The translations under genes and the position numbers were made by a program. Below the pieces are notes generated by a model, which saw nothing but the letters and a program-made list of their open reading frames with translations, had not been told where the DNA came from and did no database searches. Below are positions 28,062-30,725 of a stretch of DNA of 42,653 nucleotides, piece by piece. Within the stretch, counting starts at the first letter, position 1, and each line of letters begins with the position of its first letter. Source of the DNA: an uncultured Bacillota bacterium (GTDB lineage: Bacteria > Bacillota_I > Bacilli_A > Erysipelotrichales > Erysipelotrichaceae); the NCBI GenBank assembly GCA_949298975.1, contig CASFYR010000071.1:1-42653 (forward strand), in the 5' to 3' direction.

Positions 28062-28859
28062 ATGAAATTACTCGTATCGGATTTGGATGGAACGCTTTAT
28101 CCTCATAAACAGGTAAAAAATAAAAATCAATTCGAAGACAATGTTAAAGCCGTCAGAGAATGGGTTGAAAAAGGAAATAAATTTGTTGCTGCCAGTGCCA
28201 GAGACAAGCGTCATCATGAACAGCTGGTAAAAGAGCTGGGCTTTAATCTTAATTATATCGGTTCAAACGGCGCCGAGATCGTTTATGAGCAGGGGGAAGA
28301 AGTTACCAAAGATATTCCGCTGGAAGTTTTTATCCGAGTTGCTGAATTCCTAAAGGAAAAGAATATCAATGCGGCTGCCGGCACGACTTGCGAGGGGGAG
28401 AGACTGTGGTCCAGCCGTGATCGTTTCCCTTTTAACTGTGATGATAATCCCCGTTCACCATGGCGCAATGAGATCGTTGTTCCCGATCTTGCTGCTTTAG
28501 ATCCTGAAAAAAGGATCATCAGCGTTCATATTGTGGTTCCGCCGAAAAACCGTGATGAATTAGAGGCTATGATCGAAGGCTTAAAGATGAATGTGACAGT
28601 AACGACCAGTGATGTCGATCTGATCAATATCGAGCCTTACGGCTGTTCCAAAGGCGAAGCGGTATTGCAAGTGGCAAAGCGGTTCGGCATCGCGCCAAAA
28701 GACATTATTACGGTTGGTGATTCGGAAAACGATATCTCAATGCTGAAAGTTACCGAAAACAGTTACTGCATCGACCATGCGGAGCCCCGGGTCAAATGGC
28801 AGGCAAAAAATGTCGCTGCCTCAGTAGCGGAAGTTGTTCAAAGAGAACTTGAAAAATAA
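28062..28859 (+). CDS. HAD-superfamily hydrolase, Cof/YidA type
   Basis: A 265-aa type IIB HAD phosphatase, probably acting on a sugar phosphate or flavin-like phosphate. Motif I SDLDGTLYPH (residues 6-15), motif II ASARDKRH, large alpha/beta cap (about 85-185), conserved Lys in GCSKGEAV near 200, and motif IV TVGDSENDISML near 222 are intact. GGGGG lies 9 nt before the ATG at 28062; the ATG at 28053 touches that site and is less likely. A terminator follows. Confidence 0.85.
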   Translation: MKLLVSDLDGTLYPHKQVKNKNQFEDNVKAVREWVEKGNKFVAASARDKRHHEQLVKELGFNLNYIGSNGAEIVYEQGEEVTKDIPLEVFIRVAEFLKEKNINAAAGTTCEGERLWSSRDRFPFNCDDNPRSPWRNEIVVPDLAALDPEKRIISVHIVVPPKNRDELEAMIEGLKMNVTVTTSDVDLINIEPYGCSKGEAVLQVAKRFGIAPKDIITVGDSENDISMLKVTENSYCIDHAEPRVKWQAKNVAASVAEVVQRELEK

Positions 28860-28882
28860 CGGTCAATGGATCGTTATTTTGT
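28854..28882 (+). terminator. Terminator of the Cof-type HAD gene
   Basis: Stem AAATAACGGTC / GATCGTTATTT (one G-U pair) overlapping the stop codon, with a T-run; the following T-rich end provides the TTGTCA -35 of the next promoter. Confidence 0.75.
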
Positions 28883-28910
28883 TGTCAAAAGTAATACCTA
28901 TAAATATAAT
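28882..28910 (+). promoter_or_regulatory. Promoter of the ABC-F attenuator
   Basis: TTGTCA (28882-28887), exact 17-bp spacer, TATAAT (28905-28910): one of the best sigma-A promoters in the window. Transcription should start near 28917, a few bases before the leader ribosome site. Confidence 0.85.
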
Positions 28911-28932
28911 GGAAATATAAGGAGGTGACAAA

Positions 28933-28956
28933 ATGAGCTCATTCCTGGCTGAATAA
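28933..28956 (+). CDS. Leader peptide of the ABC-F gene (7 residues)
   Basis: Short frame encoding MSSFLAE. Its ribosome site AAGGAGGTGA (28919-28928) is a near-perfect complement of the 16S 3' end, far stronger than needed for a chance ORF. Codons 3 to 6 form the 5' arm of the terminator hairpin, so translation of this peptide controls whether the transcript reaches the ABC-F gene. Confidence 0.75.
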   Translation: MSSFLAE

Positions 28957-29003
28957 AAAAAGAAACATAAGTTTATCTTATGTAGTCGGGAAGATGTTTT
29001 TTT
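28940..29003 (+). promoter_or_regulatory. Transcription attenuator (leader-controlled terminator)
   Basis: Outer stem of nine contiguous pairs (28942-28950 with 28984-28992, two G-U), extendable past a GA bulge, enclosing a second hairpin ACAUAAG/CUUAUGU (28965-28983) and followed directly by U7 (28997-29003). The 5' arm is inside the leader ORF. A ribosome stalled by antibiotic on the leader would cover that arm and allow read-through. An alternative 9-bp pairing between the leader ribosome site (28925-28933) and 29000-29008 is also possible. Confidence 0.7.
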
Positions 29004-29066
29004 GTCACGATCATAATAATTAATCATATTTTTTGTCATCTTCTCATCTTTTAAAAGGAGAGAATT

Positions 29067-30548
29067 ATGTCGCTGATCAGTATTGAAAACTTATCTTTTG
29101 CCTATGATGACATGAATGGCAAACTGTTTGATAATGTCAGTTTTAAACTGGACACTAATTATAAGATTGGTCTTGTAGGACGCAATGGCACGGGCAAAAC
29201 TACTTTTTTGCGTTTGCTTAAAAGGGAACTGCCTTTTAAAGGACAGATCAGATCCAAGGTATCCTTTGATTACTTTCCCTTGCCGATCGCCGACAAGCGC
29301 AAAGCAATGGCTGTGATCATAGCACAGATCGATCCCGAACTGTCTGAATGGCAGATCATAAAAGAGATGAACGGCTTAAAAATCGCTATTGACTGCCTTT
29401 ATCAGCCTTATGATACTCTGTCTAAAGGCGAACAGGTCAAATTGATGCTGGCGGTCTTGTTCGCCAGAGAAAACCACTTTCTTTTGATCGATGAGCCGAC
29501 CGATCATTTAGACCTTATCGGCCGCAGGGTGGTGGCTGATTATCTTTCAAAGAAAAAGGGTTTTATCGTAGTATCGCACGACCGCCGCTTTTTAGACGGT
29601 TGTGTCGATCATATCATGGCGATCAACCCCTCGGGCATTGAAATTGTCAGTGGTAATTATTCATCCTGGCGCTATGATAAAGACCTTCGTAATGCAAACG
29701 AAATCAATGAGAATAACCGGCTTAAAAAAGAAATCAGCCGACTTAAAACGACGACTTTGCAAAAAGCCGAATGGTCGGACCGGATCGAGGCGACCAAGAT
29801 CGGCAACGGACCGTGTGATCGGGGCTATATCGGTCATAAAGCCGCCAAGATGATGAAGCGCGCCAAAAATATCCAAAAGCGTTTGGACCGCACGATCGCC
29901 CAAAAGGAAAGTTTGCTGAAGGATGTGGAAGCAAGCGAGAAGTTAAAGATCGGATCATTGGTCTATAATAAGAAACAATATTTTTATATGCAAGATCTGA
30001 CTTTCGGCTATGATGGTAAAACCGTTATCCGCGAGATCGATTTAACTTTAATGAGCGGCGATCGTCTGGCCATACTTGGATCCAACGGGTCGGGCAAGAC
30101 CAGTCTTATTCGTCTGATCATGGGGGATGAGAGAATAATATGGCAGGGAACTTTTGTCAAAAGCGATGATCTGATCATTTCTTATGTCAGTCAGGATACC
30201 GGCTATCTGAAAGGTTATTTGAACGCTTTTATTCATGAACATGTTGCCGATGAGACTAAATTTAAAACCATCCTGCGTAAACTGGGCTTTGAGCGGGATG
30301 ATTTTGATAAAGATATCGCCAAATTCAGCGAAGGGCAAAAAAAGAAAGTGTTGATTGCCAAAAGTCTGAGCGAGCATGCTCATCTGTATATTTGGGATGA
30401 GCCGCTCAATTATTTGGATATTGCCGCCCGCGATCAGATCGAGCATCTGATCCAAGAGAGCGAAGCAACGATGATCATGGTTGAGCATGACAGTTATTTT
30501 ATTGAGAAAACAGCCAACAAGTATTTGGATCTAAAAAGATACAATTAA
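29067..30548 (+). CDS. ABC-F ribosomal protection protein (Lsa-like)
   Basis: Cytoplasmic tandem-ATPase protein of the antibiotic-resistance ABC-F group; family members displace lincosamides, streptogramin A and pleuromutilins from the ribosome. At 493 aa it has two ATPase domains with no membrane segment: first Walker A GRNGTGKTTF near residue 38, signature TLSKGEQ near 118, LLIDEPTDHLDL; a linker (about 200-295) rich in Lys/Arg; second Walker A GSNGSGKTSL near 346, signature KFSEGQKKK, IWDEPLNYLD and VEHDSYF near the end. The opening ENLSFAYDD and the LYIWDEPLNYLD phrase closely match Lsa proteins. Drug range is inferred. Expression is set by the upstream attenuator; AAAAGGAGAG is its own ribosome site. 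Confidence 0.88.
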   Translation: MSLISIENLSFAYDDMNGKLFDNVSFKLDTNYKIGLVGRNGTGKTTFLRLLKRELPFKGQIRSKVSFDYFPLPIADKRKAMAVIIAQIDPELSEWQIIKEMNGLKIAIDCLYQPYDTLSKGEQVKLMLAVLFARENHFLLIDEPTDHLDLIGRRVVADYLSKKKGFIVVSHDRRFLDGCVDHIMAINPSGIEIVSGNYSSWRYDKDLRNANEINENNRLKKEISRLKTTTLQKAEWSDRIEATKIGNGPCDRGYIGHKAAKMMKRAKNIQKRLDRTIAQKESLLKDVEASEKLKIGSLVYNKKQYFYMQDLTFGYDGKTVIREIDLTLMSGDRLAILGSNGSGKTSLIRLIMGDERIIWQGTFVKSDDLIISYVSQDTGYLKGYLNAFIHEHVADETKFKTILRKLGFERDDFDKDIAKFSEGQKKKVLIAKSLSEHAHLYIWDEPLNYLDIAARDQIEHLIQESEATMIMVEHDSYFIEKTANKYLDLKRYN

Positions 30549-30586: not shown

Positions 30587-30671
30587 AATAGGGGAGTAGT
30601 TGACCTGACGGTGATTAAGCCAACAGCCGATCTTAAGAGATCTGGTTTAATATTAAACAACAAGACCTATT
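30587..30671 (+). ncRNA. yybP-ykoY (manganese) riboswitch
   Basis: The element opens with AATAGGGGAGTAG and closes with CAAGACCTATT, the conserved ends of the yybP-ykoY Mn2+ riboswitch, whose AATAGG/CCTATT arms pair as P1. Inside are hairpins GATCT-TAAG-AGATC (30629-30642) and GTTTAAT/ATTAAAC (30645-30658). The class senses Mn2+ and usually controls Mn exporters or P-type ATPases. The P1 3' strand is shared with the terminator, so metal binding should prevent termination. Confidence 0.85.
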
Positions 30672-30699
30672 GCCAGAAAAAGGGCAAATAGGTCTTTTT
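30663..30699 (+). terminator. Riboswitch expression-platform terminator
   Basis: Stem AGACCTATTGCC / GGCAAATAGGTCT (one bulged A) followed by T5. Its 5' strand includes the CCTATT that closes riboswitch P1, so the two structures exclude each other. Confidence 0.85.
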
Positions 30700-30725
30700 C
30701 TAAGTTATAAAGGGAGGACATAACT

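Follow-up and report, generated by a model that had tools for sequence, protein, structure and literature searches.

The expression of the Lsa-like ABC-F gene found at 29067-30548 (forward strand, 493 aa) probably depends on stalled ribosomes: Its leader has the layout of a ribosome-mediated attenuator, a reading to which we give a probability of about 0.6. The parts of this leader, their predicted pairings, their conservation and their covariation can be seen directly in the sequences we have compared. All coordinates are positions in the window, which is the whole stretch analyzed (42,653 nt of contig CASFYR010000071.1, assembly GCA_949298975.1, forward strand).

Both nucleotide-binding domains of the ABC-F protein are intact by motif. 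Lsa_all is its best NCBIfam family by about 190 bits, and Lsa(A) is its best solved relative. The first-pass annotation had called the gene Lsa-like, and these results bear out the relationship; nevertheless, the score of 639.8 bits does not reach the curated Lsa_all cut-off of 750, so we call the protein Lsa-like and not Lsa. The equivalog model ribo_prot_ABC_F is passed (446.9, cut-off 380). In the genomes searched, no relative is more than about 54% identical to it, and its short linker loop, GNGPCDRGYIG, recurs in the proteins of loci L053 and L058. The gene is absent in eight other genomes of the same genus. After it, a structured 5' leader with a terminator (30587-30701) precedes a gene for a P-type cation ATPase (30726). 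This second leader shows 74–85% identity with the sequence ahead of the ATPase in four genomes of the genus, where the upstream neighbour of the ATPase gene is unlike the one in the window. Against Rfam, it matches SSRC10 weakly (34.4 bits, gathering score 56) and the Mn2+ riboswitch marginally (11.2 bits).

The ABC-F leader looks like a transcription unit of its own, because a terminator-like hairpin at 28855-28878 (AATAACGGTC/GATCGTTATT followed by TTGTTGT, -9.5 kcal/mol) comes after the upstream gene, which codes for a HAD hydrolase. A sigma-70-type promoter, TTGTCA-17-TATAAT, is found at 28882-28910 and agrees with 11/12 consensus positions; transcription would start at about 28917. A strong ribosome site, AGGAGGTG (28920-28927), whose 3' end is paired in the predicted fold within the base of a hairpin, precedes a short upstream open reading frame (uORF) at 28933-28956: ATG AGC TCA TTC CTG GCT GAA TAA, coding for MSSFLAE. 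Codons 4-6 of this uORF constitute arm 1 of the hairpin, TTCCTGGCT (28942-28950). Arm 2 is AGTCGGGAAGATG (28984-28996); arm 1 pairs at 9/9 positions with its first part, AGTCGGGAA (28984-28992). The loop has 33 nt, including a nested hairpin, ACATAAG-TTTAT-CTTATGT, at 28965-28983 (28965-28971 with 28977-28983), which has similar counterparts in L100, L107 and L108. A U7 tract, the putative termination point, follows at 28997-29003, and the hairpin has a folding energy of -18.4 kcal/mol when its 3' end is placed inside this tract. All these elements, from promoter to U7, are located where the first-pass annotation had placed them.

That annotation had also proposed an alternative structure in which the ribosome site of the leader pairs with 29000-29008. 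The pairing is real (28925-28933 with 29000-29008; 0/200 shuffles as good), but it belongs to the same hairpin and forms its base; extended in this way, the hairpin has 24 predicted pairs besides the nested one. For the leader folding energy, 0/200 shuffles are as good (z -4.3 and -4.4). The uORF hairpin is the sole strong hairpin of the leader with a clean U tract directly 3' of it. It is not listed by the consensus terminator scan, since the scan takes only loops of 3–8 nt. No separate terminator next to the gene was found in the leader of the window, unlike the situation in most relatives. At the Rfam gathering score the leader has no match, and the only match elsewhere in the window is a tRNA.

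The true alternative, overlooked by the annotation, is a pairing of the second part of arm 2, GGGAAGATG (28988-28996), with CATCTTCTC (29037-29045). For this fixed 9-mer 0/2000 shuffles are as good; if any 9-mer of arm 2 is allowed, 11/2000. The ribosome site of the ABC-F gene, AAGGAGAG, is partly hidden in a predicted hairpin at 29041-29064, as is also seen in the unpaired probabilities, and the 5' arm of this hairpin overlaps CATCTTCTC: Positions 29041-29045 pair with 29060-29064 in the uninduced fold. The annotation had suggested folding with 28921-28950 masked, and a fold with arm 1 masked does predict a switch to the alternative pairing. When a ribosome is modelled on the uORF, the pairing between the two arms disappears and that of arm 2 with 29037-29045 rises from 0 to 0.18–0.77, depending on the position of the ribosome. 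At the same time, the mean unpaired probability of 29056-29061 goes from 0.10 to 0.18–0.28; with the ribosome at the uORF start codon it is 0.21. This gain is modest, therefore the translation switch is the weaker half of our model.

The comparison with relatives covers a non-redundant set of 95 regions ahead of Lsa-like genes, the window counted. A motif search picked a uORF of the M-x-x-F-S-C type in 41 of them; since the leaders were picked in this way, the peptide consensus is no independent test, while the pairing tests are. In about 35–40 relatives the consensus is roughly M-x-x-[F/I/V]-[S/L/P]-[C/A/Y]-(K/R)*. Examples are MYKFSC, MINFSCK, MRNISCR, MKTVSYR, MYNFLCK and MSSFSAK. The last one, from L061, shares 5/7 residues with MSSFLAE, and its codons differ synonymously, which hints at a coding constraint. 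By sequence, the uORF of the window is a divergent member of this family.

The relatives, too, have codons 4-6 paired in the same register with an arm further downstream. Among 21 distinct arm pairs 96.3% of the positions are paired, with 16 double changes; the maximum in 1000 column shuffles was 91.5%, with 10 double changes. These values come from codon-anchored ungapped arms, as MAFFT, when given arm-only composites, aligned the window in the wrong place. Because the choice of arm 2 as the best partner for its arm 1 biases the count towards pairing, a new search in shuffled downstream regions is the fairer control: A partner as good for codons 4-6 appears in 0/1000 shuffles for the window, and in 5% of shuffles or fewer for most relatives, not all. 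For L009, L061 and L069 no ungapped 9-nt partner is convincing; nonetheless, the uORFs of L009 and L061 are folded into a hairpin. Compared with the family consensus, six of the nine arm pairs of the window are changed on both sides (one of them to G-U) and one more on a single side, and all nine still pair. With few exceptions, arm 1 of the window does not pair with arm 2 of the relatives, nor the reverse. The first-pass annotation had read this leader as a leader-peptide attenuator and had named orthologous leaders lacking both the uORF and compensatory changes as evidence against it. The orthologous leaders share the uORF and have compensatory arm changes, which supports the reading, and the objection from sequence fails.

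The base of the hairpin also tends to include, in paired form, the ribosome site and start codon of the uORF: Such a base reaches p<0.05 in 14/39 leaders, the window counted, where about two would be expected. Nested hairpins recur among the relatives too. When a covariance model is built from 29 relatives, with the window left out, its top match in the 42.6-kb window is 28919-29019, in the right register; the match is a weak one, at 22.5 bits (E 0.034; 20.6 for the next chance match). The same model gives ten matches in 60 related genomes, at a threshold which misses the window itself, and the matches compared by position are directly upstream of an Lsa-like gene. A DNA search of 273 genomes of the family with the leader of the window gave only short chance matches and no homologous leader.

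Most relatives have, in addition, a compact terminator-like hairpin, usually 20–40 nt ahead of the gene, which is a predicted terminator. Its 3' arm is similar to arm 1 (e.g., TTTTCTTGTCGCTTTTATT); arm 2 can pair with it, and this pairing would in our model act as an antiterminator. A second arm 2 partner near the gene is found at p<0.05 in 26/39 leaders, the window counted. In L063, L067, L074 and L075, all from one genus, this partner is just upstream of the ribosome site of the gene (p 0.085, 0.065, 0.010 and 0.010, respectively), a possible precedent for the ribosome-site part of the model.

Some leaders deserve separate mention. L129, the plasmid gene lsa(E) (NZ_OR095738.1), has a leader of the same type, with uORF MYNFSC* about 360 nt upstream. 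L065, in a genome (G114) of the same family as the window, has a nearly identical leader, and its protein shares 97.6% identity with Lsa(E). In some relatives the uORF hairpin is also followed by a U-rich stretch, in L110 TTTTATTTA (-20 kcal/mol), possibly a second point of termination or pausing. Three-codon uORFs, MRN*, MRK* or MRR*, precede the Lsa-like genes of L013, L015, L020, L022, L025, L026, L028 and L029; six of them are in similar surroundings (GATGCGCAA...), and they resemble the short uORFs of VmlR and CplR. The uORF of L072, MLQNKA*, is 83 nt ahead of the gene, its arms extend to the ribosome site of the gene and no terminator is seen in this leader, which is possibly a case of translation attenuation only. 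L128 (lsa(B)) and two Bacillales homologues, L010 and L011, have a leader of another kind, with ACTCCGTATAAGTCG-type arms, where no F-S-C uORF was found. Finally, L019 (JAISTL010000188.1) is a 48%-identical Lsa-like gene with G+C-rich upstream DNA in a MAG labelled Methylobacteriaceae; such a position outside Bacillota is unexpected, and it could be due to mis-binning.

The mechanism we propose would work as follows. In the absence of drug, the ribosome would complete the seven codons of the uORF and depart, arm 1 would pair with arm 2 and the hairpin would close over the uORF start. RNA polymerase would then mostly terminate at the U7 tract, and in any read-through RNA the ribosome site of the ABC-F gene would stay partly hidden. 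A drug acting on the peptidyl-transferase center would make the ribosome stall on the uORF start or close to it; if VmlR, CplR and Lsa(A) are taken as a guide, the inducer would be a lincosamide, a pleuromutilin or a streptogramin A. The terminator could not form in this state, because the footprint of the stalled ribosome (about 28918-28949) would cover arm 1. By pairing with 29037-29045, the freed arm 2 could loosen the hairpin over the ABC-F ribosome site, and we infer that induction of the gene and resistance would be the outcome.

In the window, the uORF hairpin seems to double as the terminator, as far as the model goes. It could also be only an anti-antiterminator, its U-rich strand being paired with the start region; this role is conceivable because most relatives have a separate terminator-like hairpin close to the gene. 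A rival explanation is translation attenuation alone as in ermC, where the uORF hairpin would not terminate transcription and would merely keep arm 2 away from 29037-29045 until a ribosome stalls. The homologous hairpin of the relatives does precede a separate terminator-like one, the four leaders with an arm 2 partner beside the ribosome site would suit this explanation, and the loop in the window is large. On the other hand, an uninterrupted U7 is directly after so stable a stem, no other terminator was found in the leader of the window, and the predicted accessibility change is modest by itself; we find translation attenuation alone rather unlikely.

The signal might also be a general slowing of uORF translation, due to starvation or to any inhibitor of translation, instead of peptidyl-transferase drugs specifically. 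The mechanism needs only a ribosome parked on codons 1-5, and TopAI is described as having a uORF which senses several drug classes (PMC12121999). Nevertheless, uORF leaders are widespread among Lsa-like genes, and the characterized ABC-F leaders respond to the drugs which their protein counters (PMC9226507, PMC12421871), so general slowing appears unlikely as the signal. As for the uORF hairpin being the ordinary terminator of the HAD-hydrolase gene, with an accidental uORF, its distance of about 80 nt from the HAD stop codon would allow it. We have rejected this assignment as highly improbable: The hairpin at 28855-28878 is closer to the HAD gene, the promoter is in between, and other genomes keep the uORF and its paired arms together with the ABC-F gene.

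Attenuation by stalled ribosomes, our preferred reading, has well-described precedents. VmlR and CplR are each controlled at two levels, by attenuation of transcription and of translation (PMC9226507, PMC10201436). The vmlR leader of Bacillus subtilis has its uORF (MIN) inside the first hairpin, an alternative pairing which frees the gene and a hairpin over the ribosome site of the gene, all as predicted for the window; it differs in a separate downstream terminator hairpin, SL-3, in a NusG-dependent pause and in a uORF of three codons instead of seven (PMC9226507). The cplR leader of Clostridioides difficile (uORF MRI) agrees with our model in its combined attenuation, and its ABC-F protein is directed against pleuromutilins, lincosamides and streptogramins A, a class which we extend to the window by analogy. 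In cplR, the terminator itself hides the ribosome site of the gene and the uORF hairpin is separate, whereas in the window the uORF hairpin is the putative terminator (PMC10201436). In the msrD leader (MsrDL, MYLIFM), the ribosome stalls on top of the 5' half of the terminator hairpin, as we propose here; its peptide senses macrolides, it belongs to a different ABC-F family, and the part of the source at hand describes no ribosome-site switch (PMC10314930). The layout proposed for the window resembles terminator blocking of the MsrD type together with ribosome-site control of the VmlR/CplR type. The closest characterized ABC-F protein, Lsa(A) of Enterococcus faecalis, also has a short uORF, with a different peptide, the reported consensus being MAGN (PMC10201436).

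The M-x-x-F-S-C leaders, lsa(E) included, have the uORF register and arm pairing of the window, and in many of them also the pairing of the hairpin base and the nested hairpin. The first-pass annotation had suggested that the leader peptide, the nested hairpin and the ribosome-site pairing might be a new variant, a suggestion which is not supported, as many relatives have equivalents: The last two are features of the family and no novelties, because the relatives' leaders share both. What seems particular to the window is that the separate terminator, with its 3' arm mimicking arm 1, is missing and that the uORF hairpin is followed directly by U7. We have found no paper on M-x-x-F-S-C leader peptides, weak evidence of novelty given the few subscription papers covered, and searches with the peptide motifs returned only unrelated text. 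The mechanism is already known; what appears to be new is the class of uORF, together with the merged layout.

A wider proposal is tentative, and somewhat doubtful as a whole: A single uORF hairpin would serve as terminator, as shut-off of the uORF and as ribosome-site switch, a derived form of a widespread, undescribed M-x-x-F-S-C class which controls Lsa-like genes, those of gut commensals as well as the mobile lsa(E), and whose peptide aids drug-specific stalling. If the attenuator reading is true, a single design of leader peptide, with a uORF consensus in common, would control Lsa-like genes across several Bacillota orders, as well as lsa(E) on Enterococcus plasmids. One could then test if selection acts on the peptide sequence or on the RNA pairing alone, and if a sublethal amount of drug switches on Lsa-like genes in gut bacteria. 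The window, in turn, would show a leader which has lost its separate terminator, whose job has been assumed by the sensing hairpin.
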